A DNA stretch of 64,000 bases from Phytoseiulus persimilis. Lineage: Eukaryota > Arthropoda > Arachnida > Mesostigmata > Phytoseiidae. This document shows, piece after piece, positions 22,171 to 63,200 of the stretch. Position numbers and translations under genes: made by a program. The stretch covers positions 8,562,775 through 8,626,774 of the forward strand of contig CM075104.1 of the NCBI GenBank assembly GCA_037576195.1. The letters are read 5' to 3'. The notes below the pieces were generated by a model that made no database searches, was not told the DNA's origin, and saw only the letters and a list, made by a program, of their open reading frames with translations. Numbering within the stretch: position 1 is the stretch's first letter; each line of letters starts with the position of its first letter.

Positions 22171-22251
22171 AACTCTTTAAACTGGATGACGTGCGAGGTT
22201 CCTAGATGCACCTCTCAAAGCCGGGTGCGAGCCTGAGTGCTTTGAAGGGTG
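22171..22251. repeat. Right-arm piece 2 of long inverted repeat
   Basis: About 80 bp, the inverted match to about 15998-16078 of the left arm (AACTGGATGACG, AGGTGC, CTCTCAAAGCC). It ends at GGGTG, the target duplicated around the next insertion. Confidence 0.82.
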
Positions 22252-22269
22252 TGTTGTAGAGGAAATTCG

Positions 22270-23532
22270 TCTCCAGAGTTGGAAAGTAATGGCCAGATTG
22301 GTCCCAGAATCACCCCTCCAGAGTTGGAAAGTAATGGCCATATTGGCCTCGGAATAACCCCTCCAGAGTTGGAAAGTAATGGCCAGATTGGTCTCGAAAT
22401 CACCCCCCAGAGTTGGAAAGTAATGGCCAGATTGGTCCCAGAATCACCCCTCCAGAGTTGGGAAGTAATGGCCAGATTGGTCCCGGAATCACCCCTCCAG
22501 AGTTGGAAAGTTATGGCCAGATTGGTCCCGGAATCACCCCTCCAGAGTTGGAAAGTGATGGGCAGATTGGTCTCGGAATCCCCCCTCCAGAGTTGGAAAG
22601 TAATAGCCAGATTGGTCCCAGAATCACCTCTCCAGAGTTGGAAAGTAATGGCCAGATTGGTCTCGGAATCACCCCTCCAGAGTTGGAAAGTTATGGCCAG
22701 ATTGGTCCTGGAATCACCCCTCCAGAGTTGAAAAGTAATGGCCACATTGGTCTCGGAATCACCACTCCAGAGTTGGAAAGTAATGGCCAGATTGGGCCCG
22801 GAATCACCCCTCCAGAGTTGGAAAGTAATGGCCAGATTGGGCCCGGAATCACCCCTCCAGAGTTGGAAAGTAATGGCCATATTGGTCTCAGAATCACCCC
22901 TCCAGAGTTGGACAGTTATGGCCAGATTGGTCCCGGAATCACCCCTCCAGAGTTGGACAGTTATGGCCAGATCGGTCTCGGAATCACCCCTCCAGAGTTG
23001 GAAAGTTATGGCCAGATTGGTCCCGGAATCACCCCTCCAGAGTTGGAAAGTGATGGGCAGATTGGTCTCGGAATCCCCCCTCCAGAGTTGGAAAGTAATA
23101 GCCAGATTGGTCCCAGAATCACCTCTCCAGAGTTGGAAAGTAATGGCCAGATTGGTCTCGGAATCACCCCTCCAGAGTTGGAAAGTTATGGCCAGATTGG
23201 TCCTGGAATCACCCCTCCAGAGTTGAAAAGTAATGGCCACATTGGTCTCGGAATCACCACTCCAGAGTTGGAAAGTAATGGCCAGATTGGGCCCGGAATC
23301 ACCCCTCCAGAGTTGGAAAGTAATGGCCAGATTGGGCCCGGAATCACCCCTCCAGAGTTGGAAAGTAATGGCCATATTGGTCTCAGAATCACCCCTCCAG
23401 AGTTGGACAGTTATGGCCAGATTGGTCCCGGAATCACCCCTCCAGAGTTGGACAGTTATGGCCAGATCGGTCTCGGAATCACCCCTCCAGAGTTGGAAAG
23501 TAAAGGCCAGATTGGTCTCGTAATCACCCCTC
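22270..23532. repeat. 45-bp minisatellite, about 28 units, with an 11-unit higher-order repeat
   Basis: The unit of 45 bases contains TCCAGAGTTGGAAAGTAATG and GGCCAGATTGGT plus GGAATCACCCC. One block of about 495 bp (11 units) is repeated almost exactly: variant units at about 22690-22740 recur at 23185-23235. Because 45 is a multiple of three, unit variants rarely create stops, so long open frames of over 400 codons appear on both strands. These are composition artefacts, not genes. Confidence 0.92.
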
Positions 23533-23654
23533 CAAATCGCGAGGGGGGAGGAGGGGAGAGGGAGGGGGGACGGGGTGGGTGGCCTATGTCCTTCCCGGTG
23601 AGCCGCCCTACAAAACGCAGTTTGTTCCAAGTCGATCCGATCAATACCGGAGGA

Positions 23655-23725
23655 GCCTATTGAGGACAAACAAACAAACATACATACATACAAACAAACA
23701 GACCCTGGATTTTTATATATATAGA
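23655..23725. repeat. CAAA/CATA microsatellite and TATATATA stretch
   Basis: ACAAACAAACA and CATACATACATA blocks followed by AGACCCTGG and TTTTTATATATATAG. It could be the tail of a small retroposon. No coding content. Confidence 0.6.
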
Positions 23726-23941
23726 TGTGATTGGGGGAGTGAGAGTTGTTGAGTTGAGTCTTCGCGGAGTACTTCGAGGGTGTTCGTAATTACGGAACTG
23801 AGCCGGGGATGTTGGTGAACATGGGTTCACTGATGAAGGAGTTGATTGTTCTAGCGCCTCAATTGGCGTTGCTTCTAGTACGAACCGAGTCTGCTCAATC
23901 TAGATTCGGATGCATCCGCTTTCGCGTGTTGCATCTCAACA

Positions 23942-41849: not shown

Positions 41850-43815
41850 TTCTGAGGAGCTTCGCAAATTTTGTCGCAGGCATTCGATAGTGTATTCTAG
41901 ATCCGAAATCTTCTTTCGATTCGTGGCGCACTCCACGATTAGCGTTTTGGCATATTCTGCCGATCCGAGTGCAGGGGGGTATACGACATTTGGACCAGGA
42001 TTGAGTGTGCATGGATGCATTCGGGCTGGCTGCGACGCGCCGAATTGAAAAACAGTAGGGTGCTAAGCAGCGCTCAGTCACCGCGGCGAGAAGACATGGT
42101 ACTGTCGAGGACTAACGAATGACTCTCAAACTCCTGTGACTTCGATATGGACAGAGCTACGCCACCAGAGTTACCGCTTCGCAAGAACTAAGTGTGTCAA
42201 GGGAGTCACCTCTCATTAGGATCGTGGCCTGATCTCGGGCAGAAAAGGAATAAGCTGAATATTGCTTCGATTCGAATGAATCGGTTGAACCGGATGATTT
42301 TCTCCAAACAGGCAGTGAGGCAGTGAAAGAAGCAGAAAAGCCGGAATCGGCGTCGGAGTCATCTTTCGGTCTCAAGTCATTGATCTCACTTCGTCGCCAT
42401 CGACTGTACAATCCTCTGCGGTCAGCATGAACCGATTGTCTGGACGGTAAATATAGAGTTGGGATTCCGGGTGAACCATCCGCCTGGCATGGTTGCACTT
42501 ATGGCGGCAACAGAACTTCGAAATTCGATTCTTCCGCGGTTCGGGAGCCACTCAAAGTTCGATGACAGAAGAAACGAAGCGTCAACTTCAACTAGGCATC
42601 CGTGAGCGGGCCGGGAACCCGAGTTCCGTCCATCTATTCCCGACCGCTACGTCCCGCTCGGCACGTCTGCACCAGGGAAAGCTGGAGCAAAACAGGAACA
42701 GAAGGAAACCGACGATTTAGGGGATTCAGCAGTTTGTCGTTGAACGTGTCGCATCGCATTAGCATTGAGACTATTGAGAAGCTAAGATGGAAAAATGTTG
42801 CTCCTCCTTCCAACGCTGCCCCGGCTCCCATTTTGCCGGACCCATTTGGCCGAGTTATGGCTTCCAGCGGCTTTTTCTCGCAAACGAAAAAGAGTCTCGA
42901 GTTGAAGGCGCCACCCTGCATACGATGGACCCAGTCAGCGCTATTATCCTATTATCTATCTATTAGTATCTAGTATTAACTTTTCTGCGGCACAAATCCA
43001 CCGCAGCCCCCCTTGAGTCATTGTTATATCCGCTTCTGCAGCCCTGCCGGTTGAATTCCCCCGACTAGGCGACTGAATCACAGAGGTCCTTGCAGAAGCC
43101 GACTGCGGATCCTGTCATGCTTGACTACATTTCCACCGACTCCGTCCTTGCAGCGGGGGCATCATGCTCGCTCAATCCTGTCAATCTTCATGCTGCGAAG
43201 ATTTCTCCCGTAGTGCAAGACTGTATCTCGAATGGAAACTGTGTAGCCTCCGAAATAGTGCTTGGTAACGCAGTGATCCTGGTTCTCGTTCCGTCCGCCG
43301 AGGGCAAAAGCTAAACAATTAGTGCAACCCAGACTCCGCCTTCCTCACTATGATGGCAAATCAGAACGCCCGTTTTCCCGTTCATCTGCATTCAACAATT
43401 GCAAGATTCTGTCTTCTTCGCTTCAGTGGCGCGTAAGGTATTTTGTGTTCCATGGTGCACCATGCAACGGACACATTCTTCCCGTGATTTTACACAACCA
43501 TCCCGCTTTGTCGCATGTGCCACGGAACGCTGCTCAGCACCCTTCAGTTTTTCAATTTAGCGCGTGACAGAACCTTCTCGCCGACAGCCCGCATGCATTC
43601 ATCCACATTCGATCCTGGTCCAAATGTCGTATGCCCACTCAGGGGCCGTTAGTCTAGCGCGGCGTGCCGCGGTGTGGAGCAGTTTCGCTTTTTTCGCTCG
43701 TTGAATTCAGGCGCGACTGCCTGTCTGTAGTAGAATCGGGACTGTTCATCCATTTGGGGCCAAAGGCGGTCTGACGCCTTCTGAGCAGCATCGCGTGGAA
43801 CGCGATGCAAATCCT
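41850..43815. other. Unassigned, with an inverted pair at 41979-42071 and 43528-43634
   Basis: About 100 bp at 41979-42071 recur inverted at 43528-43634 (ATTTGGACCAGGAT, CATGGATGCATTC, GGGTGCTAAGCAG against GCTGCTCAGCACCC, GCATGCATTCATCC, TCCTGGTCCAAATG). The sequence looks like part of the same transposase family's upstream region. The ORFs between (e.g. 42157-42498 minus, Ser-rich; 43090-43314 plus) are unrecognised. 43646-43815 is the target of Copia-A. Confidence 0.5.
43811..43815. repeat. Target-site duplication ATCCT of Copia-A, left copy
   Basis: ATCCT immediately precedes the LTR at 43816 and recurs at 53490-53494 immediately after the other LTR. A 5-bp duplication is usual for Copia elements. 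Confidence 0.92.
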
Positions 43816-44132
43816 TGTTGGAATAAGGTCCACGTAGCTCAGTTGGTGACACCTCACCTAGAAGTATCTGTAGAGTATGGGAAGAGCACGGCACACAATA
43901 AAGAGACAGGGATTCAGTGTTAGAATAGAGTAGCTCGCTGAGCATTGCTTTATTGGGGTTATATATACCACTGTGGAAAGAAGAGCCAGTCCATGAAGAC
44001 CGGAAGGTCCTTCATGGATGGCATTGTCAGTATCTCACAGAAAAGTGTTCCGGTCAGAATGACCTCGTATTCTGGACCTCGCATTGGTTCAGACCAATTC
44101 CAGCTACCCAGAAATATGGCTATATTTCATCA
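43816..44132 (-). repeat. 3' LTR of Copia-A
   Basis: 317 bp (plus strand TGTTGGAATAAGG...TATTTCATCA). On the minus strand it has a GGTATATATAACC TATA box at about 43965 followed by CCAATAAAGC, giving a U3 of about 165 bp. Identical to 53173-53489 as read. Confidence 0.95.
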
Positions 44133-44141
44133 TCCTCCCTT
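44133..44141 (-). other. Polypurine tract of Copia-A
   Basis: AAGGGAGGA on the minus strand directly abuts the 3' LTR, the expected primer site for plus-strand DNA synthesis. The same sequence abuts the Copia-B LTR at 56144. Confidence 0.85.
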
Positions 44142-44532
44142 AGATGGAATCAGTCTGAAAAGGGCATTTGTTCTACTGGGAACAATTCACTTCCTATCCT
44201 CTTTATCTCAATGATACCGACAAATTTGGTCATTTCCTCCAAAGTTTAGTAGGATTCGCTTTTGAGTATTATTCGTCACTTGGCATCACTGGGCCAATTT
44301 CTCGATGCAGAGTATTTTTCTTCTTCAAGAAGTGAACGAGAAACTCAATACCTACCCCGCTCCATGAGGCGGACGTGCACTACATTTGAAACTTCAAGCA
44401 CGACATTTGAGAACGCGGCTAGAGACTGGGATCGTCTCCAACCCGTTGCATAGTCGGTGCTGTTCATTCCCTCCTCAGTCTACGAACTGAGAGGTACCTT
44501 CGTCCTACGTTCCGAAGATTCAGCTTGTGATC

Positions 44533-46251
44533 ATGTCCGAAGAACAGCTCTCTATGGTGAACGTGTCCGAAGACCATCCAATGACATCGACAGAGGCAGC
44601 CCCATCCCCAGAGTCCGCTGGCCAACCGGTAGGACCTTTGATACGAGAAAGCTCGTTTGTCGTCTCCAATGTCGTTGGGATTTCACGGGTTGAAAGCCAA
44701 AGTCGTTTAGTCATGGATCGTGTCGCTCGCATGGAAACCAACATTGAACTGTATCGGAACGACATGATTTCCCGCGTGAACCAGCTTTCGTCGACCCGCG
44801 ACATGCAAACAGTAATTCGCGAGCTGGTGAGCCGGACGAATCAGAACGCTGACAACTTCTCGCGACTCCTGGTACAGCTTGATCTCTTCGCGAAGTCTGT
44901 AGCATCCACCGAGCAAATTAAGCCAATTCTTCATTCGATAGAAGAGCTCCAAGTGGAATCGCAAAAACAGCTCCGAGTCAGTGTCCAGAGCGCAGCAGCT
45001 CAAGAGGCTTTGATCGAACGGCAGGACGCCTTTGCAAACAGCATGGCCACGACTGAACAGATCAGTTACTTGCATGAAGTTACAGCCAGTCTCAGAAAAG
45101 AGCTAACCACTCTTGATGACGACCTGGGCAAGCTTTCGATTGATCTGCAGTCTGTCGGTTCATCTCAACCGAACGCGTCCCCCGAGATTCAGGCCGAGTT
45201 ATTGAAACTGAGCCGTTCCATGAGTCAAGCCGAAGAGAACTCCAAGATGATTTCTGAATTCGTGAAGAAACAAATCAAGGATGTTCAAGATAGTCAACAA
45301 GACTTCGAAGTTCGTCTCACTCGGATGGATTCAGCCTTTCGAGATTTCGCTGACCGTACCAATCAACGACATCGAAGCCTGGAGCAAGCAGACAAGGACA
45401 TCCGAACTCGTCAGGATCAGCAATCTGCCACGGTCACGAAGTTTGGAAAAAGATACTACCGACGTCGTTTCGACGCAGTGTATCCTGAACACGGAGGTTA
45501 AGAATCTCACGTCTGCAGTCACCACACTAGGCTCGACTGTTTCATGCCTTGCGACCAGCGTGCGTTCTCAACAGGCCGAGGTGGACCGGCTCTCAACTAC
45601 AGTGAGATCTCAGCGGTCCTCCCTCAACTCCGTGAGACTCGCCATTGCCGAAAACCTGCAGTCAACTGAGGCCCAAACCGAAGAATCGACTCGGGTTCCG
45701 TGTGAACACGTGGAGAGCACGAATGTACCAACTGCTCGCTGGAGCTCCATTCGTCAGGATGCTCGAACGATAGTGAAGAAACGCAAATGGATCATCGGAT
45801 TCCTTCTCCTCCTGATCACAGGTACGTCAGTCACAAATTCTCTTGATCAGAGACGGTCTTACAGACCCATGGTAGTTCCAACAATCTTCTCCGGCACTGA
45901 CTAATTCGCTGCTTTGTTACAGTTGTAACTGGAAACATTCTCATGTTCCACTCTCTGGATTCAGTAGCAAGAATCAATCCGAATCCATCGCAGAATCCGA
46001 TCGATCCGGAACCTGTTACCGACCGCAGTCCCATCCCCGATGCAGCGCCACCATCCAGCAAAAGAGTCTCTACGCTGTATTTCCAGTGCGAGCGTTATGA
46101 CGATGGTTGGGCCTGTAAACATCGGTACGAAGAAACCTGCCTGGTTGTTGATGGTAATGCGCCCGTGACGCATTTTCTGAGATGCAGTGTTCCAGTAAAG
46201 TCCACAGCATGCAGTCCCTCTGGGACGGCGTCCAAGTGCGTCCGCGCTTGA
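44533..46251 (+). CDS. Antisense gene A: coiled-coil type II membrane protein, spliced
   Basis: Runs opposite to Copia-A. Exon 1 from the ATG at 44533 encodes about 430 residues dominated by heptad repeats (a long coiled coil from about residue 60) and ends in a basic KKRKW followed by a hydrophobic stretch. An intron at 45822-45922 (CAG|GTACGTCAG to TTTGTTACAG, with CTAAT before the acceptor) joins in frame so that the hydrophobic halves become one transmembrane helix. Exon 2 then gives about 110 outside residues with six cysteines. Within exon 1 the frame shifts by one base near 45442, where one extra T breaks the heptads. This is a mutation, an assembly error or programmed. No family recognised. 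Confidence 0.72.
45822..45922 (+). other. 101-bp GT-AG intron in antisense gene A
   Basis: Donor G|GTACGTCAG, acceptor GCTTTGTTACAG|TT, branch-like CTGACTAAT 20 bases upstream. Splicing is phase 1 and joins two open frames at 45281-45904 and 45925-46251. A sense genomic RNA could not splice it, so it would survive retrotransposition. Confidence 0.72.
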
Positions 46252-46475
46252 GACATGAACCATCTCAGAAACCATTTGTTTTCAATCTCAGGAGTTTGTT
46301 TATGCTTTTCGAGAGTTATCGATACTCCGATCAGCTTCTCAGAGTAATCCAACGACCACGAATGCATATTTTCTATCCGTGTCGGATTAAACAACAACTC
46401 TCACAACACTCCAAGTAGTGTTGGCAGAGGGGACCCCTTTCTCATCGAGTTCGGAGGTATACAAGACCTGACTCG

Positions 46476-48086
46476 ATGTGGATTTCCACATTACACAATA
46501 TACTTGCGATGAACTCGATGTCTCAATTCAAGTCGCTGGCCAGCCGAGTGGCCGGGGTCATCCTCTTTCTGCTGAGTTTAGCTCTCAGTCTTTATTTCGT
46601 TTGGGGAGTCTTTGTGTCGTATGTGCTCCCTTCCGTGAGACATCCGGACTTTTCATCAGTGGATGAAGAGAGTGCTTTTTACCAAACACTTTGCCCAGAG
46701 GATCATCAAAGTGCGTGTTGCTCATCTGAGTTTTTCTCGTTGTCCACATCTCGCTCGATGGACAGTTCTTCAATTTCCCTTGAGCCATCGACCACGTGGC
46801 TTGAGGTATCTTCCGCTCTTTTTCTGCTGCATGTGATTCCGGTCCCTTCAGAACTCACATCATTTGACTCTGCATCGGAACCAGTTGTTCCTTCTGTGAT
46901 CTCAACCATGATCTCGCCTACGCGTACTCTCAAAACTTCCGCAAGCTTGACGACTTTCACAACGGAGCAGAAGTTAGCCTACCAGAGAGATCTTCTCGGG
47001 GCTTCTCTCCGTCGTGAGATGGATTCATCAAAGTCAAGGCATCTTCTGTCTACCAGATCTCCGCTCCCTGAACCTGTTTATAGATCTAGCACTTTCACTG
47101 TTTCACCTTCGGGATTTGCTGAGCTTTCTTCTGAGCGCAGAGTGGTCACGCCCTCAGTTTTCCCAAGGCTTTCTCGTCGGAGTATCATAATGCCGACCTT
47201 GATTCAGCCAACACGAGTCCTTCAGACTCCAGCGTTGTTCCGGTCATCATCTCCATCATTGAGGGACAGAGTTCACTACTCTAAATCCTCCCTCAGAATG
47301 ACCAGCTGGACAAGTCTGATTTCTCCATCATCCACCATCCATTTGTTCTCAGCGTCTGTGCGTTCTTTTTCCGCCAGACCACTATCGGTTGTGCCTATCG
47401 CAGAATCTCGGGCTGTCAATGAACAGAAGAGCAAGTCTGGCCCAGAGGCCATGATTGAGACCTCGGATGATCTCGTCGTCCTCGAGGCAAACCCGGTGCG
47501 TATGAACGTGTCCACTAGAATCACGACTACGACACGTCCGACTCAACGTACCACCCCGAGGCCGGTCGGTACCACAACATCGACCACCTCTCGCAAGCCG
47601 GTTGTCACAAACCTCACCACGGTTCGCTCAACGACAACCACTGGTCAGGCCAAGAAAGCTTCATCATCGACTACCTCAGAGGCTCCCGACGTTACAACAT
47701 CAACAACCGTTGAAGACAAGTTGGAAACATCAACTACAGAAGGACCGTCATCAACCACCGATGAAACATCCAAGTCCTTTCTCTCCTCTTCCTCAACCGA
47801 TCCGGCTGTCACTGATGTTGACAGTACAACACCGGGCGTTGTTATCACCGAGCCGCCACCAATGATTCTGTACACACCCGTCAATCGGTACCAGTGCACG
47901 ATCATGAGTTACAATCGAATTTGTAAGTCGCTGATTAACAAGATCTGCATTTTCGTCCGGAGAACAACTCCGCTCAGGAACACAATGACAGTACGTCTAT
48001 ATGTTGGACATGAAGAATTTGCCATTGATGATGAGCATGACAAGTTTGGCCAACAATGTAAAAATTTTGTCAAGTATTATTCATGA
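46476..48086 (+). CDS. Antisense gene B: mucin-like membrane protein
   Basis: A 536-residue protein. A hydrophobic anchor lies at about residues 25-50 (VILFLLSLALSLYFVWG), with no other membrane segment, so the bulk is predicted to be outside or lumenal (type II). The middle is strongly Ser/Thr-rich, and residues about 345-455 are Thr/Ser/Pro-rich repeats expected to carry O-glycans. The C-terminal 70 residues contain NRYQC and four further cysteines. It starts 224 bases after gene A on the same strand and ends 75 bases before the convergent ORF3. A paralogue at 61443-62432 shares the Thr-rich and NRYQC parts. No family recognised. Confidence 0.7.
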   Translation: MWISTLHNILAMNSMSQFKSLASRVAGVILFLLSLALSLYFVWGVFVSYVLPSVRHPDFSSVDEESAFYQTLCPEDHQSACCSSEFFSLSTSRSMDSSSISLEPSTTWLEVSSALFLLHVIPVPSELTSFDSASEPVVPSVISTMISPTRTLKTSASLTTFTTEQKLAYQRDLLGASLRREMDSSKSRHLLSTRSPLPEPVYRSSTFTVSPSGFAELSSERRVVTPSVFPRLSRRSIIMPTLIQPTRVLQTPALFRSSSPSLRDRVHYSKSSLRMTSWTSLISPSSTIHLFSASVRSFSARPLSVVPIAESRAVNEQKSKSGPEAMIETSDDLVVLEANPVRMNVSTRITTTTRPTQRTTPRPVGTTTSTTSRKPVVTNLTTVRSTTTTGQAKKASSSTTSEAPDVTTSTTVEDKLETSTTEGPSSTTDETSKSFLSSSSTDPAVTDVDSTTPGVVITEPPPMILYTPVNRYQCTIMSYNRICKSLINKICIFVRRTTPLRNTMTVRLYVGHEEFAIDDEHDKFGQQCKNFVKYYS

Positions 48087-48127
48087 GGAAGTGAGAGTGT
48101 TCTTATTTGGCTAGAAGTTGCTTTCCG

Positions 48128-48133
48128 TTTATT
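48128..48133 (-). terminator. AATAAA downstream of sense ORF3
   Basis: CAAATAAACGG on the minus strand lies 28 bases after the ORF3 stop, in the gap between the convergent genes. It could end a subgenomic sense mRNA before the antisense genes. Confidence 0.45.
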
Positions 48134-48160
48134 TGAGAGATCACCGTGAATGAGCGAATC

Positions 48161-48667
48161 CTAGATGTTTTGAGTGGTGGCGCCATAGGGCGAGCCGGTG
48201 TTCATGTTAGCCCCAGCAGCAGAAGGCTGATCTTCTCTGCTGAGACGCTGGTACTGCTGCCGACGCCATGTTTGAATGACGCATCGGGAACAGCTAGTAC
48301 CGCCATAGACCACTACGATCGTTGTGAGGATTACCGCGTAAAGTAGGAGAAAGTTCGTCTTTGTTGATGGGTTTGGAACAGGACTTGGTGGATTCGGATG
48401 TGTATAGTTGTAATACGCTTCCCAGATGTCTTGGCCTCCAAACACCTGTCCGTCGGGAAACAAACATGCGACCGTTGGTGACGCTTTTTCTCTGCAGCCG
48501 TCCAACGTGAGGATGCAATCCACTGGGAAGTGTTCCGGACTCAATTCTGAGATCATGCATGGTTGGGTGGACCGTATGCAGAGGGGCAAACAGCAGGAAC
48601 TATACTCGAAGAAGCTGGTGACCGTTGCCACAAGCTGAAGCACCAAGATTGCTTTGAAACTCCACAT
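48161..48667 (-). CDS. Copia-A ORF3: small type I membrane protein
   Basis: A 168-residue protein in the sense orientation whose ATG (48667) overlaps the last 68 bases of pol in another frame. It has an N-terminal signal peptide (FKAILVLQLVATVTSFF), an ectodomain of about 80 residues with about eight cysteines, one NYTHP glycosylation sequon, a Pro-rich stalk, one transmembrane helix (FLLLYAVILTTIVVVYGG), then a basic tail with Cys near the membrane. The position after pol is where env genes sit in retroviruses, but the protein is very small. I recognise no viral glycoprotein family and see no fusion peptide. Confidence 0.72.
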   Translation of the reverse strand: MWSFKAILVLQLVATVTSFFEYSSCCLPLCIRSTQPCMISELSPEHFPVDCILTLDGCREKASPTVACLFPDGQVFGGQDIWEAYYNYTHPNPPSPVPNPSTKTNFLLLYAVILTTIVVVYGGTSCSRCVIQTWRRQQYQRLSREDQPSAAGANMNTGSPYGATTQNI

Positions 48668-51600
48668 GGTTTTTGATGCCTGCAAGATTCCGCAGTGCCA
48701 CAAAGTGAGTTTCAGGCAGAGTTTTAGTTCCTATGTCTGCGATGTTCTTATCAGTTACACAATGCTCGATTTTAAACTCCCCAGCCTCAATCTTTTCTCT
48801 CATCCAAAAGTAGCGAATTTCGATATGCTTACTTTTTCTGGAGACCTGTGTGGTGGTGAAGAGATTCAAACAACCTGTGTTGTCCACCCGAAGAGTTGGT
48901 ACCACTGGGTATCCGACCTCTCCCAGAAGGCGGGTCAACCAGACCACGGACTTTCCCATTTCGCTACAGGCTATGATCTCGCTTTCCATGGAGCTCAGCG
49001 AAATGCAGTTTTGTCTCTTTGAGGACCAAACTACGCACGCGCCTCCGAATAGGATGAATGCGCTGCTCGTGGATCTTCTGGTTGCCTTGCACCCACTCCA
49101 GTCAGAATCACTGTATGCGATTATGCCATCAGAGACATCACCAGTGTATTTCGGACCGAAATAGCGTGTTCCAGACAGATACCTCAATACTTTGAGACCA
49201 ACGTTCCAGAGATGTTTGGTAGGCCTCTCCAGGTGTCGAGCCAACATGTTCACGCTGTACGAAATTTCTGCTCGGCTTACCACGGAAGCGAACATCAAAC
49301 CCCCCACTAGTTCTCGATATGGGAGACTGAGATCGACTTCCCCCTCAAAGGCAGATTTCGAAGTGGCATCGATTGGAACAGGAGATGCTTTGCAGTTCTT
49401 CATGTTGAAACGGTCTAGCAATTCTGCTATGTATTGAGCCTGGTTGACCTGGATAGTTCTTCGGTCCGGGGAGATTTCAATCCTCATTCCCAAGAAGAAT
49501 TCCAGTGGCTTCGCGGTGAGTTCAAACGTCTCTTGGAGTTCCTTGACCAACTCATCATTGGTTTGTTCTTTGTCAGATGCGATCAGGCAATCATCGACAT
49601 AAACCAAGATGAAAACTCTGTTTGGTCTGTTTGAGAAATAGAGGCATGGGTCGAGGTTGCTCCTCGTGAGTTTCACGGATTTCAAGTTTAGCAATGTGTC
49701 ATTCAGCTTCTTGTTGAAGCAAAGGGGACTTTGGACCGCTCCGTACATCGCTTTGAGTAGCTTACATACTCTTCCAGTTCCATCTTCCATTCCCGATGGC
49801 TGTTTCATGTATAGAGTACGGTCCAGTGGGGCAGATAGGAAGGCAGTGGATACATCGGCTTGCCAAATCCACAATCTTTCCTTGGCGCACATTGACAAGA
49901 CAGTACGTATGGTCTCGTACTTTGCAACCGGCGAGAACAGGGTATCATAGTCAAGCCCGGCTCTCTGTCTGTGCCCTCCAAGGACAAGTCGAGCTTTCCT
50001 TCTCACTATCTGGCCATCCTTGTTAAACTTCAAGGAAAAGATCCAATGATTCGAAAGGACATGCAGTCCTGGCTCGGGATCTACGAGCTGATAAACCTCA
50101 TTACTCTTGAATGATTCTAGCTCCGAAGCCATTGCGGCGAGCCAATCCTTTTTGTACTTAGAGCGATTAACATCAGCTAGGCATGAAGGTACGTCTACCT
50201 CTTGTTCTGAACTGCCTAATGTTTCGCTAGTCTTGTTAGACTTCGTAGCACTACTAGTGGCAAGGAAGGCTAACCCTGCCTGGTACCTATCCGGCTTCTT
50301 GAGAGTTTCTCTACTTCTCAAGGCATACTTGCAGCCCTCGGATTTTTCACTCGCCGTTGCCGGAGTTTTCCTTGGTGTCCTCTGTTCGCGCGAACTTACG
50401 GCAGGCGGTGTCGGACCGCCGGGCACATCATCCGGGCCGATCCCCAATTCGACATCCACATTTCTCTCTCCACTCCAGTCGTTGCTGTCGTCATCGGCGC
50501 TGTCTCGGCCGCCGGCGTCGCTGGGAGAGGGTTCTTCATCATTCGCTGGAGGCTCGTTGCTATCCGTTGATGGGGAATTCTGTGAAGGTTCTTCGGGAAG
50601 TTGATTTTCTTCCTCGAACAGGGGTGCTGGTTCCTTCACTAGGATATCTCGGATACGATGAATCCTGGTCGTTCCAAGTTCGAGTACACGGTAACTGAGA
50701 CCGTCTTCGTCGATGCCAACGACTGCTCCTGCGATGGCTCTGTGATCCAGCTTGGTTTTGTCAGGCTTGATATTGTAGAACCAACAGCGGGTTCCGAACC
50801 TCAGAACTCTACCCAGATAGGGCTTGTGACCAGTGATGATTTCGAATGGGGTCTTGCCAGGAGGGTCGAGGAATTTCGTGACATTCAGGCAGAAAGTTGA
50901 AAATGAAATTGCTTCCCCCCAAACCCCCTTCTTTAACTGGCTGTCGATAATCATGGTTCTTGCGAGGTTCAATAGTGTACGATTCAGGCGTTCACTAATC
51001 GAGTTGAGCTGCGGTGTGTATGGGGGGGAGTAGGAGTAGTCACATCCTGTTGAGGTAAGGAGTGACTGCAATCTCCTGTTGACAAACTCACTCCCGCCGT
51101 CCGAGTGGAAATGATACACTTGTTGTCCGGTTCTGAGCCTGAACCATTTGAGGAAGTCCTTTACTCGATCGTAGACTTCCACTTTGTTCCGGAGGAAATA
51201 CGTTTTACGGAAGCGGCTATAGTCGTCAGTCAATGTGAGGAATGCTTGATGTCCTCCGTAGGACATGGTGCTGACAAAGCAGACATCACTGCTGATGTAT
51301 CCGATCCGAGGGGCGCGGGAGCTCATCGGCTTTGATCGATAGCTCGCTCTATGCATTTTTCCTTTTACACAGCTCTCGCAGCTGGTAAAATCCTTGAGCA
51401 CCTCATAGCCTTGTCTCTCCAACATTGACTGAAGCCATCCTACGTTTATGTGGGCGAATGTTCGGTGCACTTTTGTTAGGCTGATCTTTTTCTTCTTCTC
51501 TTCTTTGCCCTCAGCTTCGAGTCCTTCGGCCGTTTCAGTGGAGTACAGAAGGTAGAGACCATTTTTACGAATCGCTCGTATGGTCATCTTTCCTTTTGTC

Positions 51601-52418
51601 ATGAGCATAGAATCCCGACAGATCCGCATATCGAAGCTATCATCAGTGAGTTTCGAGACTGACAAGAGATTCCGACGGAGTCGTGGAACATACAGTACAT
51701 CCTTCAGAAGAACAGTTTTGGGCTGTCCATTCTGCACGAAAGTCACACAGGCAGTCCCGGACCCAGGAGCGCTCAGAGTCCTAGACCCCCCAAGTCTGAC
51801 CTGTCGTGCCTGAGGATATGGTACGTAGTTTATCAAATGATCTTTGGAGTTGATCATATGAAAATTCGTTCCACTATCCACGATGAACTCATTGTCTGGA
51901 GTCACGCTGTTTGTCTCTGCTTGCTCTAACTCACAATTGTAGAACTCGATGGCGCGGACTTCGCTGTGGTTGGCGGTTGCGGGTTGTTGATTTTGCCGGT
52001 TTCCAGGTCGCCTTCCGGGGCGCCTCTGGTGATTCTGATGTTGTTGCTGAGGACGATGATGGTGCTGTCGTTGATTTCGGCCAGAGTGCCCACCCTGCAC
52101 TGGGACGCGACACTGGGCCATGAGATGTCCAGTCCGCCCGCACTTGTAGCAGGTTCTCTCTGTTGTTCGAGTGACGGTGTGGTTAACACTTGTTCTGTTG
52201 AAGGTCTTCTGACGATGCTGTTTGTTACGGGATGTACGGAGTCTCGAGAACAAGGCCGTAACCTCGTTAGCATCGAAACGTCCTGTTCTGATCGCCTCAA
52301 GTTCGATAGCTGCCATCAGATGTGTCAGAGATTGAGACGCATCCTCCCTCGCGTTGAAACCCTGCTTGAAGGCCTCCCAGGATGAGGGAAGACTATCGAG
52401 AAGAACCGTTATCTTCAA
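48600..52418 (-). CDS. pol: Copia-A Pol (Gag end, protease, integrase, RT, RNase H)
   Basis: A 1272-codon frame. It opens with the end of Gag (DSLPSSWEAF) and a zinc knuckle CYKCGRTGHLMAQC (residues 90-103). Protease IVDSGTNFHM is at about 179-188. Integrase has an HHCC domain ending CESC (about 347-350) and catalytic Asp 378, Asp 440 (HSDGGSEF) and Glu 476 (ISERLNRTL). RT starts at NHWIFSLKFNKDG and has LVYVDDCL near residue 938. RNase H has YSDSDWSGC and SSMESEI, ending with VTDKNIADIGTKTL. All catalytic residues are present. It begins without an ATG, in the -1 frame relative to gag, at about 52440. Confidence 0.95.
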   Translation of the reverse strand: MKITVLLDSLPSSWEAFKQGFNAREDASQSLTHLMAAIELEAIRTGRFDANEVTALFSRLRTSRNKQHRQKTFNRTSVNHTVTRTTERTCYKCGRTGHLMAQCRVPVQGGHSGRNQRQHHHRPQQQHQNHQRRPGRRPGNRQNQQPATANHSEVRAIEFYNCELEQAETNSVTPDNEFIVDSGTNFHMINSKDHLINYVPYPQARQVRLGGSRTLSAPGSGTACVTFVQNGQPKTVLLKDVLYVPRLRRNLLSVSKLTDDSFDMRICRDSMLMTKGKMTIRAIRKNGLYLLYSTETAEGLEAEGKEEKKKKISLTKVHRTFAHINVGWLQSMLERQGYEVLKDFTSCESCVKGKMHRASYRSKPMSSRAPRIGYISSDVCFVSTMSYGGHQAFLTLTDDYSRFRKTYFLRNKVEVYDRVKDFLKWFRLRTGQQVYHFHSDGGSEFVNRRLQSLLTSTGCDYSYSPPYTPQLNSISERLNRTLLNLARTMIIDSQLKKGVWGEAISFSTFCLNVTKFLDPPGKTPFEIITGHKPYLGRVLRFGTRCWFYNIKPDKTKLDHRAIAGAVVGIDEDGLSYRVLELGTTRIHRIRDILVKEPAPLFEEENQLPEEPSQNSPSTDSNEPPANDEEPSPSDAGGRDSADDDSNDWSGERNVDVELGIGPDDVPGGPTPPAVSSREQRTPRKTPATASEKSEGCKYALRSRETLKKPDRYQAGLAFLATSSATKSNKTSETLGSSEQEVDVPSCLADVNRSKYKKDWLAAMASELESFKSNEVYQLVDPEPGLHVLSNHWIFSLKFNKDGQIVRRKARLVLGGHRQRAGLDYDTLFSPVAKYETIRTVLSMCAKERLWIWQADVSTAFLSAPLDRTLYMKQPSGMEDGTGRVCKLLKAMYGAVQSPLCFNKKLNDTLLNLKSVKLTRSNLDPCLYFSNRPNRVFILVYVDDCLIASDKEQTNDELVKELQETFELTAKPLEFFLGMRIEISPDRRTIQVNQAQYIAELLDRFNMKNCKASPVPIDATSKSAFEGEVDLSLPYRELVGGLMFASVVSRAEISYSVNMLARHLERPTKHLWNVGLKVLRYLSGTRYFGPKYTGDVSDGIIAYSDSDWSGCKATRRSTSSAFILFGGACVVWSSKRQNCISLSSMESEIIACSEMGKSVVWLTRLLGEVGYPVVPTLRVDNTGCLNLFTTTQVSRKSKHIEIRYFWMREKIEAGEFKIEHCVTDKNIADIGTKTLPETHFVALRNLAGIKNHVEFQSNLGASACGNGHQLLRV

Positions 52419-53053
52419 ATCATCAGGAAGTTGGACGCCAAGAGCGCAACATGAGCCGCTATCTGCTTGAATCGGAAGAGGTTGTCCCCCGCTGTCTTGT
52501 TCGCCTGGTACACGAAGTTGTGGAACTTGGTGAGAGCCAACCGTTTCAGAGCACCATTTGTAAGGGTGAACTTGCCGGTTATCTCACGCCACATTTCTGG
52601 GGCTTCCACGGTGTCGGATCTTCCGGAGAACAGAGAAACAGCGAGGGCAGTTTGGAGCGATGCAAAGAGAGTGCATCGGGCGACACGGTTCCCAGCGTCG
52701 AACTTCTGCCTCTGGATTTTGGATTGTTTGTCGTTCTTCGTTTTAGGAGGCGGTGCCAGATTTCCCAGAGCAACATCGAGCGCATATGGATCTGCATCCA
52801 ATGCGGCAGAAATCAGTGTTTTCCAAGCCGTGTAATTTGAGCCGTCCAGCTTCAACTGCACCAGTTCACGGGGACGATGCCTTGGAGTCATGTTGAGACC
52901 GTCTTCATCATCTGTCCCATCGTCCTTGCCTTGTTCCAGCTGTTCGCCTACTCGTCTAGCTGATTGCTCGGGCATGTCGTCGCCTATATCACTAAAGCCG
53001 TGGGAGCTGGTGGAATCTTCCTGACCACGTTGACTCTCAGATGGATTCATCAT
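52415..53053 (-). CDS. gag: Copia-A Gag, N-terminal part
   Basis: A 212-codon capsid-type protein with the Copia Gag signature LDGSNYTAWKTLI at about residue 68. It has an acidic Ser/Gln-rich N-terminus and ends at a stop just where homology continues in pol (residues corresponding to VQLPDDLKI lie in the other frame). Copia elements normally encode Gag-Pol as one frame, so a -1 shift is needed near 52440. I see no canonical slippery heptamer there. The ATG at 53053 is 120 bases from the 5' LTR. Confidence 0.9.
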   Translation of the reverse strand: MMNPSESQRGQEDSTSSHGFSDIGDDMPEQSARRVGEQLEQGKDDGTDDEDGLNMTPRHRPRELVQLKLDGSNYTAWKTLISAALDADPYALDVALGNLAPPPKTKNDKQSKIQRQKFDAGNRVARCTLFASLQTALAVSLFSGRSDTVEAPEMWREITGKFTLTNGALKRLALTKFHNFVYQANKTAGDNLFRFKQIAAHVALLASNFLMI

Positions 53054-53172
53054 TCACGAGGACTTCTTTCACTCGATGCACCGAACGATCACTTGTACAC
53101 TCTGAGAGTCACGCACTTCACAGTACACTGTCCAGATGAAGGTGTCCGCTATTACTCGTGCGCAATAACGAA

Positions 53173-53489
53173 TGTTGGAATAAGGTCCACGTAGCTCAGT
53201 TGGTGACACCTCACCTAGAAGTATCTGTAGAGTATGGGAAGAGCACGGCACACAATAAAGAGACAGGGATTCAGTGTTAGAATAGAGTAGCTCGCTGAGC
53301 ATTGCTTTATTGGGGTTATATATACCACTGTGGAAAGAAGAGCCAGTCCATGAAGACCGGAAGGTCCTTCATGGATGGCATTGTCAGTATCTCACAGAAA
53401 AGTGTTCCGGTCAGAATGACCTCGTATTCTGGACCTCGCATTGGTTCAGACCAATTCCAGCTACCCAGAAATATGGCTATATTTCATCA
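53173..53489 (-). repeat. 5' LTR of Copia-A
   Basis: 317 bp, identical by eye to 43816-44132. The minus-strand sequence after it (TTCGTTATTGCGCACG) should hold the primer-binding site, but I do not recognise a matching tRNA. Confidence 0.95.
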
Positions 53490-53527
53490 ATCCTGGAGTT
53501 CCAGTACGTGAATCCAGAACGGTGACT

Positions 53528-53741
53528 GTTTGGGCATAGTGCAGAGTAGTAGGGATTGGGGGAAAACCAAGAAATAGGGTGCTAGCGGTCAGGGCGAACT
53601 GAGTCCAAAGAACCAAGGAAAAAACACGAGGGACGTTTGGGCATAGTGCAGAGTAGTAGGGATTGGGGGGAAACCAAGAAATGGGGTGCTAGCGGTCAGG
53701 GCGAACTGAGTCCAAGGAACCAAGGAAACAACACGAGGGAC
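53528..53741. repeat. Two tandem 107-bp units
   Basis: GTTTGGGCATAGTGCAGAG starts at 53528 and 53635. The two 107-bp units differ at only a few positions and end CACGAGGGAC. No gene. Confidence 0.93.
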
Positions 53742-53754
53742 CTGGAGGTGTACA

Positions 53755-54240
53755 TCAGGTTAATACCGTAATATTATGCCATGCCGAAGGAGAATCATGC
53801 GGGAGAAGTGGAAGAAGTGGATAGAGGCCGGAGAAGTGCTCTGAGAAACAGAGAGAGAAAAGATGCGTATGAACCACGCACAGCACCCTGCCGGTATCAT
53901 CTGACCATCCGGGGGGTTGAGTCATCCACATTTGTTCCTGGAGATCGCCATAGAAGAAGGCGGTAGTTACGTCAAATTGACGAAGTTTTAGACGCATTGA
54001 TGCACTAGTGGCAAGCAAAACGCGGACAGTGTCCAGCCTGGCAACAGGGCTAAATAGCTCCTGAAATCCTTGACCGGGAATTTGATTATAACCGCGAACA
54101 GCGAGACGTGCACGGTAACGGTCTATTTCGTTTTCAGCATTGGTTTTCCTGCGGAAGACCCAGCGACAAGTTACGGGTTTCTCGTTCTGTGGTGGGTCGA
54201 CCAATGTCCAAACACCATGAGCCTTAAGGGGGTTCCCTAC
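53755..54240 (-). pseudogene. Copia reverse transcriptase fragment (another family)
   Basis: The minus strand encodes the start of Copia RT: TCRWVFRRKTNAENEI, RYRARLAVRGYNQ, FSPVARLDTVRVLL and QFDVTTAFFYGDLQEQMWM, then loses the frame before the YVDD box. It is not part of Copia-A, whose RT is complete. Confidence 0.88.
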
Positions 54241-54388
54241 TTTTGTTCATGTTCCTCGTTTTAAGTCCCTGTATGACCGAGAGGGCTGAAACTTCGCTTG
54301 GCCGTCCCTCGGCCCTCGAAACGAAGACTGAAGTTGGAGCATGACTGGCAAAAAAAGGGAGAGGGCTCTAGCCCGATCTAACGAAAAA

Positions 54389-59295: not shown

Positions 59296-60228
59296 ATGGA
59301 TCCGAACCAGTCGCCGTACCGTGTGGTTCCATCACCTTCACCACCGCCTCGCATCAATCATCCTCCAGGTATTCGATCTCCCGTTCCAGTGAACTACATT
59401 GGGTATCGTCCTCCGGTACCAGTTAATGTTCATGTACCAATGCCCATTCCTGTGACATCTGGTCAAATGATTGTTCATCCCAACAACGATGGGAACGTCG
59501 TTACTGTGAACGTTCAGGAATCAGGGCTGGTATCCGAGTATGGGAAGCGACTCATGGATCCACTTGTTCAAAGGGAAAATGCAGTTTCCATTTATCGAAG
59601 CGAAGCTCTTGCCATGCCCAATTCAAACATTGATATTGGAGTGCTTCATGAGGAAGTTAAAATTCTTCGTTCCAATCTCGACACCTACGCCGAGAATTTC
59701 TCCAGTCTTCTTACTCAGCTCAATGCGTTCGCTAAGTGCGTTCCCAAGACTGCTGCTCTTGATGAAGTCATCAAGTCCATGAGTCAAATTCATGATCAGG
59801 TACAGGACCAAGGATTGGTCATCAAAATGACTCCTACAAGTCACAGTGGACTCTCTGATCGTCAGACTGAATTTGCGTCAGAAAGTGCTACAATCGAACA
59901 GATTCAACTTGTTCATGAAATGATTGCCAGTGTCCTCACCGACGTTGCCATGGTCGTAAGTCAAGTCGGAGTCATGTGTTCCAAAGATCGCTCTCCTGTC
60001 TCATCCGCTCTGGGAAATGTCGATTCCCTGACGCGAAGCATTGCAGAGCTGGAGGACAACATTCATCGTCTTGAGAACAAGATAATCACGGTTGATAAGT
60101 CAGCCAAAAAGGGTACAGCCCGTTTCCCCGAAGCCGTTTCCCCGACCGGGAACCCTCTTCTGATCCTGAGACCCTACGAGTCTATGAGGCTTCTATGTGG
60201 AGCGCAGAGTCGAGACCAATTACGCTGA
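59296..60228 (+). pseudogene. Antisense gene A' : coiled-coil paralogue, 3' truncated
   Basis: 310 codons from the ATG at 59296. A Pro-rich N-terminus (about 70 residues) precedes a coiled coil that aligns with gene A: ENFSSLLTQLNAFAKCV against DNFSRLLVQLDLFAKSV, and an LSDRQTEFA...TIEQIQLVHEMIASV block against IERQDAFANSMATTEQISYLHEV. The transmembrane and Cys-containing parts are missing, lost before the MULE fragment at 60430. Same strand and same order relative to the LTR as in Copia-A. Confidence 0.68.
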
Positions 60229-61442
60229 TAAATTGGGAAGAAGTGCGAAGTCGGCCCACCATAGACACTAACTCTCGACTTCGGGAATGATGGTGCTGGA
60301 GCTTGGCGAGTCACATTTGGCGGTGAAGGGTTAATTATGATTCCGCACAACTTTGCTCGCCGATAAGCTCGTTATATCATTACAAATAAGTATGAGGATT
60401 CATATCAGGCCTCGACAAGTGACCCAAGGTCATACAAGAGCTTTCACGGACGCCACGTTTTGAAGGTATTGTGACAGCGAAACTTGATTGGTCTCCAATT
60501 CCTCCGCGAAGTTCATCAGTTCCTGATTGATTCTTCGATTTCGCGGTCGTGATCGAGGTGGGGGCCCTCCCTGCCGCAGGAGAAGCATGTCATTTTTGAA
60601 CCGTTGCTCTTGTTGTTTGAGATGTTTCACCAAATCGAAGACGTTCGGATGAGCCTTCCCAGCCGCCGTATTCAGAGCTTGATGCCATCCCTCGATGTGG
60701 TTCGTGGTGCGGGCGCCGTCATTCCGGTAATGATTCCACAGCCCTCGCAAAAATACTCTTTGGAAGTTTCCAAACCCTGGTATGCAGGATGGTCGGGTCC
60801 GGGAGAGTGTGCGTTTATCTCCATTGTTTCCGTTGTCCCACTCAGTTGTGTTTCGTCCGAGTCGGCTCAAACAACTCTCGTTTCAATCGCTCACAAGAAG
60901 AAATGAAACACTTTAGGAACACAGCGGAACAAAAACTGCGGTCGAATCGTACGGTAAAATCGTTCCTGAGATTCCAAACCAAAAGATGCACCGGAACGAA
61001 AAGAAGTTTTCGATCCGAAACCGTGAGTGTCAACAACCGCCACTGCTTGCCGAGCGAGTTTATAAGCACTCCGATTTCGACCGGCAAACTGCTTACGTGC
61101 AACGCACATGGGATCAATAGAAACGTCCCGAGTTTTATCGAAAGCCGGACGGACAATACTACAGAACATCCAAGCGATTCCAAGCGACAAGCGACTAAGA
61201 GACGTTCTATGATGAAATGATGCCAACGGCTCAGTACGACTCCAGAGAATGGCAAAGCACTGAAAGAACGGTTCCGTAGGCTTTCCGATTCGTTCTCTGA
61301 TATGGAAACTTTCGAGATGCGCACGAGCGCTTTAGTTGAATTATGACGGACGCAATAAAGACAAAACTTAAGGGGAGCGACTTAAGTAACCTCTACACTC
61401 CCTCCGAATGAGTCTTCTGAACCTAAGCGTGACTACGAGAGG
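60229..61442. other. Insertion zone between A' and B'
   Basis: Contains the MULE fragment (60430-60870) and otherwise short unrecognised frames on both strands (e.g. 60842-61324 minus). It has replaced the end of A' and the membrane anchor of B'. Confidence 0.45.
60430..60870 (-). pseudogene. MULE transposase C-terminal fragment
   Basis: The minus strand encodes FLRGLWNHYRNDGARTTNHIEGWHQALN followed by HPNVFDLVKHLKQQEQ, the C-terminal signature shared with the MULE at 35590-35700. The catalytic core is absent. Orientation is opposite to A' and B'. Confidence 0.85.
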
Positions 61443-62432
61443 ATGACCATCAACTCACCATTCCGTTTTTCTCCTGCCAGTTCCAGTGTATCATTTACGG
61501 AACTCAACGCTGATGCTCAGGTTAGCGTGGGCACAACCAATGCTCCACCACACTCTGAGCATCCTGCATCCTCACCTTTGCTTGCTCCCTCTGTTGCCTC
61601 TTCAATGGAGCCCTTCTGCACTGCCTCGACTCTGCATCCAACATTCAAGACTGAATTTTTAACAAGTGCACCTATATCTGCGGCAAATAATTCCGTCTTT
61701 CACCCTTTCACTGCTCAACTGCTGGTGGAGCTGAGGGAGCGTTCGTTCATCGAGTCGGGTCGACAACCCGATCGCATTCCTGATCGGTACCACCGATCTC
61801 CAATTCGGTCACAACGACCGATAATCCACAGAAGTGCCTCTTCTAAGCCCATGAGTGTGAGTGTTACAACTCTCCCTACCAGGTCTTTTGAGAATGCTGT
61901 ATCTTCGAATCAACGTTTGCCTCCACGTGGCCTGAATGGCCAATCTTAGGTTCCTCCAATATTTGGAGTTACCTCCAATTTTGACCTCCAAGGAAGTGAT
62001 TCTAACTCATCATCTGGCAGAGCAAACTTGAAAACGATTTCTCAGCCCTCAACACAGTCATCGTCATTGCTCACGACGACCACTCGGAAACCAATGATCA
62101 AAGTCATGACTTCAACAACTACCTCAACAACAACAACAGCCTCAAAAATAGCCAGCAAGCCTTCAACATCTGCTACGACTCAACAGTCCTCATCCGAGAG
62201 TTCTTCTCTCACTACCACTGCCTCATCAATTGCTGATGAGAGCTTTGTACAGAAAATGGTAGCCTCTTCTACTGAGACAACCTCAGCAGAGGTCTCTTCA
62301 GAATACTCAACGCCTCAACCGACCACTACCAGTGCTCCGCCACCTGAAGCTCTCCCCATGATCTTTCACATACCATCTAATAGGTATCAATGTGAAATCA
62401 TTTCATTCAACGATTATGCAGATCCATCGTAG
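61443..62432 (+). pseudogene. Antisense gene B' : mucin-like paralogue with one stop
   Basis: A single frame of 330 codons interrupted only by TAG at 61947-61949. The first half is Ser/Pro-rich. The second half has Thr/Ser repeats and ends PPPEALPMIFHIPSNRYQC, which aligns with the gene B segment PPPMILYTPVNRYQC. After the stop at 62430, other frames continue to resemble the end of gene B (a DDHVLDEVC-like piece), so the C-terminus is frameshifted. The N-terminal anchor of gene B is missing. Confidence 0.65.
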
Positions 62433-63067
62433 ATCGGACCTGTGTTCTTGTAAAGCGAATGACCAGACTTAATCATCATCTATCTGTTCTCCCATACAAG
62501 AACGATGACCATGTTTTGGATGAGGTGTGTTAATTATTCCAAGGGTTTCAAAGCTCCCTTGTTCGTTGTTTCGCGCGCTCTGTAAATTTCCTCGGGAGAA
62601 GTCCCACACACGTAGCGCGCCTCGCATTGTGTAGATCTTCGAGCGCGCTCCTCCGGCGCGGGGACCGCCATCTTAAGATAAGTTGAGAAAGTGTAACAAA
62701 CCGGCCCCACTTGTGTGCGAAAGTCTGCTCCGACGTCGTCCCTTCCGAGTCATGCCCGTGCTCCATTCTCCGGAAAAAGACGACACGGCGTCAGGTAGTT
62801 CCAAATGCGTCTAAAATTAACAAGGTGCATTCAAAGATTCCACAAGTTTGTGATGGTCATCGTAACTTCATTGCGTGAAAAGTAAATTTTCAATTCGAAC
62901 AATGAGAAGATTATTCATTCTACTATGGGTCAAATATTGATAACAGTTGTACTGTAAGGAGATTCAGGGCTTGGTTGCTCTCTTGAATCTGGCCGCTGTT
63001 CTGTTCCAAGCTGCTGATACGCACGTCGGCGTAGAGCTTGAATTGTGCAGGCGAACAAGCTGCACAA
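62433..63067. other. Unassigned
   Basis: Apart from the decayed tail of B' up to about 62530, no gene or repeat is recognised. Confidence 0.45.
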
Positions 63068-63200
63068 ATTCAAAGAACCGCCTGATCTCCTCATCCGGAG
63101 GACATTTCGTTTCTCTGGGACACGGAAGTCATGGGTATCGAGCCATACTTCAAGGAGAACGACGAAGCACCGGATGAGGAGATCAGGCGGTTCTTTGAAT
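63068..63200. repeat. Perfect 31-bp inverted repeat (hairpin)
   Basis: 63068-63098 and 63170-63200 are exact reverse complements (CCGGATGAGGAGATCAGGCG is the core of the right copy), separated by 71 bases. The right copy is inside the BEL coding frame. The left copy looks like a fold-back duplicate at the truncation point of the element. Confidence 0.9.

Follow-up and report, generated by a model that had tools for sequence, protein, structure and literature searches.

The 64,000-nucleotide stretch of the Phytoseiulus persimilis genome analysed here (contig CM075104.1, positions 8,562,775 to 8,626,774; hereafter the window) contains a Ty1/Copia long terminal repeat (LTR) retrotransposon with three predicted membrane-protein genes between pol and the 3' LTR, one in sense and two in antisense orientation. 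In its own direction, the element reads 5' LTR, gag, pol, ORF3, gene B (antisense), gene A (antisense), polypurine tract and 3' LTR (Table 1). The LTRs have TG and CA termini on the sense strand and differ at 0 of 317 positions, so that the insertion is recent. The identical LTRs, ATCCT flanks and polypurine tract reported in an earlier note on this sequence are all confirmed. A Pfam search of the pol frame gives rve at 340-435 and RVT_2 (5.4e-50) at 739-982, as well as Pol_BBD, SH3_retrovirus and a zinc knuckle; integrase thus precedes a Copia-type reverse transcriptase (RT). The gag of the window copy gives sub-threshold matches to Copia gag.

About 4.4 kb separate the pol stop from the 3' LTR, and this cassette holds the three membrane-protein genes. 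Within 44133-48160, stop-free runs reach 555 and 336 codons in the antisense direction and no more than 131 in the sense direction; the long antisense runs, together with the recurrence of the genes in diverged elements (see below), argue that the cassette frames exceed chance. Membrane anchors had been predicted for all three open reading frames in the earlier note, and each indeed has one hydrophobic segment above threshold. The description of the element as young and complete holds for its age, given the identical LTRs, but not for its completeness, as the gag-pol and gene A frames are both split in the window copy. The gag-pol split lies near 52.4-52.6 kb; L003 and L006 have a single 1,484-codon frame. 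In gene A, the shift of frame is near 45.4-45.5 kb; several other copies have ~470 uninterrupted codons at this place. A second gene A intron near 45.45 kb was considered and dropped, because these open copies indicate a frame change of the window copy.

Table 1. Coordinates of the Copia element and its parts within the window
Feature	Position	Strand	Remarks
Element overall	43816-53489	-	9,674 bp; Ty1/Copia LTR retrotransposon
Left target-site duplication	43811-43815		ATCCT; adjoins 3' LTR
3' LTR	43816-44132	-	317 bp, identical to 5' LTR
Polypurine tract	44133-44141	-	Sense AAGGGAGGA; abuts 3' LTR
Gene A exon 1	44533-45821	+ (antisense)	Long N-terminal part and first half of membrane segment
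Gene A likely intron	45822-45922	+	GT..AG, phase 1, within membrane segment; assigned by eye
Gene A exon 2	45923-46251	+ (antisense)	Remainder of membrane segment and cysteine ectodomain
Gene B	46476-48086	+ (antisense)	N-terminal membrane anchor, Ser/Thr-rich stalk, C-terminal cysteine domain
ORF3	48161-48667	- (sense)	168-aa membrane protein, six conserved cysteines
pol region	48600-52583	-	Stop-to-stop frame; first ATG at 52316; pol stop 48600
gag part	52415-53053	-	Out of frame with pol in the window copy
5' LTR	53173-53489	-	317 bp
Right target-site duplication	53490-53494		ATCCT; adjoins 5' LTR

The cassette within and beyond its family

The genome searched (181 Mb, 127 contigs) has 112 matches to the cuticle chitin-binding domain PF00379, which is typical of arthropods, and 23 to wnt (PF00110), pointing to an animal host and very likely to an arthropod. 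Cassette DNA of at least 1.7 kb at 94% identity or more was located at 15 loci, the window included. Nine pol copies match the 3.6-kb query over its full length, and each of them is accompanied by cassette DNA on the side where it is expected. Two have it in partial form: the ORF3-proximal 1.9 kb at C4:1118151 and the nearest 362 bp beside ORF3 at C4:882568. Another copy of 9,674 bp (C3:38412968-38422641) is flanked by the target duplication CGTGG, its LTRs agreeing at 316/317 positions; in a third (C4:257270), flanked by AATGG, the LTRs agree at 314/317. With ATCCT in the window, three cassette-bearing insertions thus have separate 5-bp duplications. The claim of the earlier note that the element mobilises its own set of membrane proteins is backed by these duplications and by the recurrence of gene A antisense to ORF3. 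The note had also considered that most copies might lack the cassette, with genes A and B existing elsewhere as host genes; the nine full-span pol copies speak otherwise, and the genome searches, in which single-copy host relatives were not individually sought, did not show any of the three cassette genes as a normal gene of the host. At C4:861452-880359 (G000; L029, L025 and L030), two tandem elements seemingly share a middle LTR and have AGTCG at both of their outer ends, probably a compound copy arisen by LTR recombination.

Beyond this family, ORF3 was searched for behind pol throughout the genome. As 150 of 460 candidates were scored in the RNase H search and 150 of 220 in the ORF3 protein search, the counts are lower bounds. 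With the window ORF3 as the query, at least 95 of the 150 scored Copia RNase H matches have an ORF3 on the same strand within 1.5 kb downstream: 11/11 at pol identities of 90% or more, 20/26 at 55-89%, 26/32 at 41-54% and 38/81 at 40% or less. The diverged ORF3 of L082, which recovers the window ORF3 when used as a second query (E 1.9e-5), adds 22 and raises the number to at least 117/150. ORF3 is found behind pol in Copia lineages down to ~32% pol identity, so that the claim of the earlier note was an understatement, and ORF3 protein matches reach down to 22% identity. Conversely, an RNase H match among those listed lies upstream of at least 102 of the 150 scored ORF3 matches.

The antisense genes recur as well. 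Among 46 gene A matches examined (of 56 found), 33 lie antisense to an ORF3. At least 38 opposite-strand pairs of ORF3 and gene A occur within 6 kb, comprising 37 ORF3 matches (some of them pieces of one ORF3) and the 33 gene A matches, and 32 of the 38 are spaced 2.2-2.9 kb apart. In L054, L055, L056, L057, L079, L080, L081 and L082, ORF3 or its end follows pol, and a small cysteine domain is present in accompanying antisense frames. In L081, L082 and one L080 frame this domain was recognised by eye, the profile matches not being significant. The stretch behind ORF3 is interrupted in L058, and L059, from a family with an ~81% LTR match, has a single frame of at least 110 codons, which does not look cassette-like by eye. 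Occurrence beyond this genome is suggested by three proteins on other contigs; as one of these is 98% like L082, its source may be the same species or a near relative. In summary, the ambisense gene set recurs in very diverged Copia elements of the genome, and the window element is a recent insertion of a long-established ambisense Copia type.

Several further observations concern relatives and neighbours of the element. The L082 family is separate and young, with 15 full-length ORF3 matches at 96-100% identity and no stops, and with six pol matches having a 1,455-codon open frame and one having 1,454 codons. An old, broken cassette relative lies at 59298-63086 of the window. It has a gene A-like frame (27% match), a gene B-like end at 61950-62429 (profile E 8.6e-5) and an ORF3-like C-terminus at 62930-63086 on the minus strand, the ORF3 seemingly resuming in L060; a stretch inside it resembles a MULE by eye. 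From 63086 on, an RT frame gives a weak RVT_1 match (E 0.0018) and appears BEL/Pao-like by eye. Just outside the window element are two 107-bp tandem units (53528-53741) and a fragment of another Copia RT (53755-54246; RVT_2 7e-32). Elsewhere, 22215-23789 is a tandem-repeat stretch with several frames open on both strands.

The cassette proteins and their selection

Genes A and B encode predicted type II membrane proteins with C-terminal cysteine domains. In gene A, a single membrane segment is combined with a small ectodomain, and the side ahead of the segment is the more positively charged in 3/3 sequences; the long N-terminal part of gene A gives weak coiled-coil-type matches only. None of the cassette proteins of the window, L054, L055, L057, L079, L080 and L082 has a Pfam match above the curated cut-off. 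The C-terminal domains of A and B match each other in hhalign (E 5.8e-5, probability 66%). Over 1,119 frames, a profile of B detects an antisense frame of L057 (8e-6) and gene A of L055 (2e-5), L056 (5e-4), L054 (0.0075) and the window (0.021), and a profile of A detects antisense frames of L057 (1.4e-9), L058 (7e-4), L080 (1e-3) and, weakly, L079 (0.04). These cross-matches and the hhalign alignment suggest that A and B are probably paralogous in the cysteine domain.

Gene A has a phase-1 GT..AG intron, assigned by eye, at one shared position in the window, L054, L055 and L056, with a length of 101 bp in the window and 86 bp in L054 and L055. Its removal yields one continuous membrane segment in all three joined sequences. 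As this position is shared by lineages in which exon 1 is only ~25% identical (window versus L054 or L055), it is probable that the antisense strand gives rise to spliced transcripts.

ORF3 and pol have 68 nt in common, at the start of the former and the end of the latter. Six cysteines, a Phe, a Gly, a Trp and a Pro-Tyr in the tail are invariant in two alignments of nine and eight diverse members. The cysteines are located at 26-68, and the membrane segment, which is above threshold in 8/9, begins at ~106; an N-terminal hydrophobic stretch is above threshold in 4/9. In the eight ORF3s with the segment, 3-6 Lys/Arg follow within 15 residues. Between ORF3 and gene B, no relation was seen.

One assessment of selection used a single pair of copies, L055 and L056. 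Gene A exon 1 has a dN of 0.071 and a dS of 0.660 in this pair, giving a dN/dS of 0.11 (Fisher p 4e-42; 379 codons, 0 stops, 0 gaps), compared with 0.30 for ORF3 (p 0.0036) and 0.15 for the pol end. The ectodomain stretch of gene A has a ratio of 0.54 with one stop. Of two gene B stretches, the first has 0.41 and the other, in which there are two stops, 0.53; intron may be included in these stretches. The window ORF3 compared with other lineages gives 0.19-0.29 with dS near saturation. Gene A is thus under strong purifying selection in the L055/L056 comparison, with weaker signals elsewhere. Within the window family, dN/dS ranges over 0.35-1.29 for ORF3, 0.46-2.10 for gene A exon 1, 0.00-0.64 for gene B and 0.10-0.87 for pol. 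In the dN/dS comparison of A, B and ORF3 proposed in the earlier note, the ratio is thus low for gene A exon 1 in L055/L056 but not clearly low for the cassette genes within the window family, and the latter weighs against the envelope-like reading set out below. Taken in 200-bp steps, L055 and L056 have a DNA identity of 0.93-0.95 along ORF3 and pol and of mostly 0.77-0.94 along the A/B half. Their dS is 0.66 in gene A exon 1 versus 0.12 in ORF3; both contrasts hint that parts of the cassette have been exchanged between lineages.

Comparison with known systems

No animal Copia element with such a gene set was found in searches of one open-access library, Repbase and subscription papers not being covered. 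Among the closest known systems are the plant Gypsy elements Retand, Grande and RIRE2, which have kept open reading frames of unknown function antisense to gag-pol between pol and the 3' LTR (PMC7264820, PMC11963269). The window element shares this position of its antisense genes; it differs in its Copia pol and its membrane proteins, whereas the plant products are TRP28 or nuclear proteins. A profile search gave no TRP28 (PF04195) match for A and B, and for the sense frames of that region in Retand PMC11963269 reports no transmembrane regions. HBZ of HTLV is likewise a retroelement gene on the antisense strand near the 3' LTR (PMC7264820, PMC11963269), yet it is a nuclear regulator of a vertebrate retrovirus.

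Sireviruses, plant Copia elements with an env-like gene, have an extra sense frame after pol in many members (PMC3599292). Going by that description, they share the Copia pol and the extra sense frame with the window element and differ in their plant hosts. Sireviruses are not known to have antisense membrane genes. Among animal elements, GalEa and other Copia are known from arthropods and other animals (PMC3587641, PMC8220671); the excerpts of these papers mention no comparable cassette, and the words env and envelope are absent from the main text of PMC3587641. In bdelloid rotifers, LTR elements have a variety of ORF3s behind pol, and some of these proteins contain membrane segments (PMC5408684), but the lineages are retrovirus-like and are not this Copia set.

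The nearest precedent for a small membrane protein in an LTR element lacking a classical envelope is the FAST-like sORF2 of Drosophila MDG1 (Metaviridae), which has basic residues after its membrane segment (PMC11952523). The sORF2 candidates are 63-107 aa long, have an ectodomain of ~30 residues and are all in forward orientation, and most, though not all, FAST/sORF2 members start with MGxxxS/T, an N-myristoylation motif (PMC11952523). ORF3 shares the basic residues but differs in its length of ~160-180 aa and its cysteine ectodomain. Its assignment to FAST/sORF2 was rejected, since the positions of its cysteines and segment do not fit an ectodomain of ~30 residues and the MG start is absent from all aligned ORF3s.

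A possible role at the cell surface

We propose that a sense promoter in the LTR would produce the genomic RNA, from which ORF3 would be read through its start overlapping pol, unless a shorter RNA serves, and that a separate promoter near the 3' LTR would give antisense A and B mRNAs, which would then be spliced. The sense RNA would be reverse-transcribed while A and B make their own mRNAs, and because the sense RNA is the template, the antisense introns would be retained; the old intron of gene A agrees with this expectation. ORF3, A and B would reach the cell surface and do an envelope-like job, i.e. binding, a mucin-like shield and an inward link via the long tail of A, which would let capsids pass to other cells, for instance the germ line. 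A role at the surface is favoured by the membrane segments, by the cysteine ectodomains and by the stalk rich in Ser and Thr, and the sharing of membrane genes across Copia lineages suggests a possible action there, such as passage from cell to cell. An ambisense Copia whose surface proteins serve in such transfer is our best explanation of these predicted features, held with roughly even confidence.

A number of points weigh against it. As proteins, ORF3, A and B are predicted from their genes. Searches of Pfam, NCBIfam, PDB sequences and two fold searches, the latter with models of low to medium confidence, gave no significant likeness to a known envelope or fusion protein, and profile, PDB and fold searches gave no relative of known function. 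ORF3 is small (168 aa in the window), the ORF3 of L069 and one antisense frame of L082 are without a membrane segment above threshold, and 33 of the 150 scored RNase H matches show no ORF3; in the two examined (L083, L084), no cassette was recognised. Furthermore, among scored ORF3 matches of at least 120 aa, 76/111 are stop-free and 35/111 have a stop, indicating that certain copies multiply or survive despite a disrupted ORF3. Fourteen of the latter, at 41-45% identity, have one TAA each (e.g. C120:21463 and C3:30341714) and may represent a family amplified with a broken ORF3.

Such broken copies would also fit a different role for the same translated ambisense set, in which the proteins act on the host cell by masking receptors, excluding other elements or damping defence, or in which antisense transcription controls the element. 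A and B are positioned for expression apart from gag-pol, and in plant elements a regulatory function is assumed for the antisense products (PMC7264820, PMC11963269). However, RNA control alone leaves the protein-level selection on gene A and the conserved cysteines unexplained, and the nuclear or TRP28 nature of the plant products (PMC7264820, PMC11963269) contrasts with the membrane segments of A and B. We regard such a role as a substantial possibility, if short of an even one. The weak selection within the window family and the split gene A of the window copy could alternatively mean that the antisense frames are relics or by-products and that the sense part alone, with or without ORF3, matters to the element. 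This is highly unlikely, as gene A and its intron have been kept across strongly diverged lineages, and as exon 1 of the L055/L056 pair combines an intact frame with a low dN/dS. That host genes were captured on a single occasion, or that the assembly is chimeric, was rejected as having next to no probability: nothing in the analysis speaks for it, and it is contradicted by the 15 cassette loci, the separate target duplications and the layout that recurs in distant Copia elements.

An extension of the envelope-like reading, less likely than not, would make the Copia elements here ambisense agents resembling retroviruses. They would form an old branch equipped with a surface complex composed of ORF3 and two related type II proteins from spliced antisense mRNAs. 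This complex would serve in passing capsids between cells or even hosts and would have an origin unrelated to known viral envelopes.

Animal Copia elements are usually regarded as intracellular gag-pol elements. If the cassette is a kept surface set, it would represent a separate origin of surface function in a Copia branch. It would also illustrate a way to keep spliced genes in a retroelement, namely by putting them on the strand that does not serve as the reverse-transcription template. Access to the germ line by elements without a classical envelope would become testable in a new group, and the cassette offers new protein families to look for.

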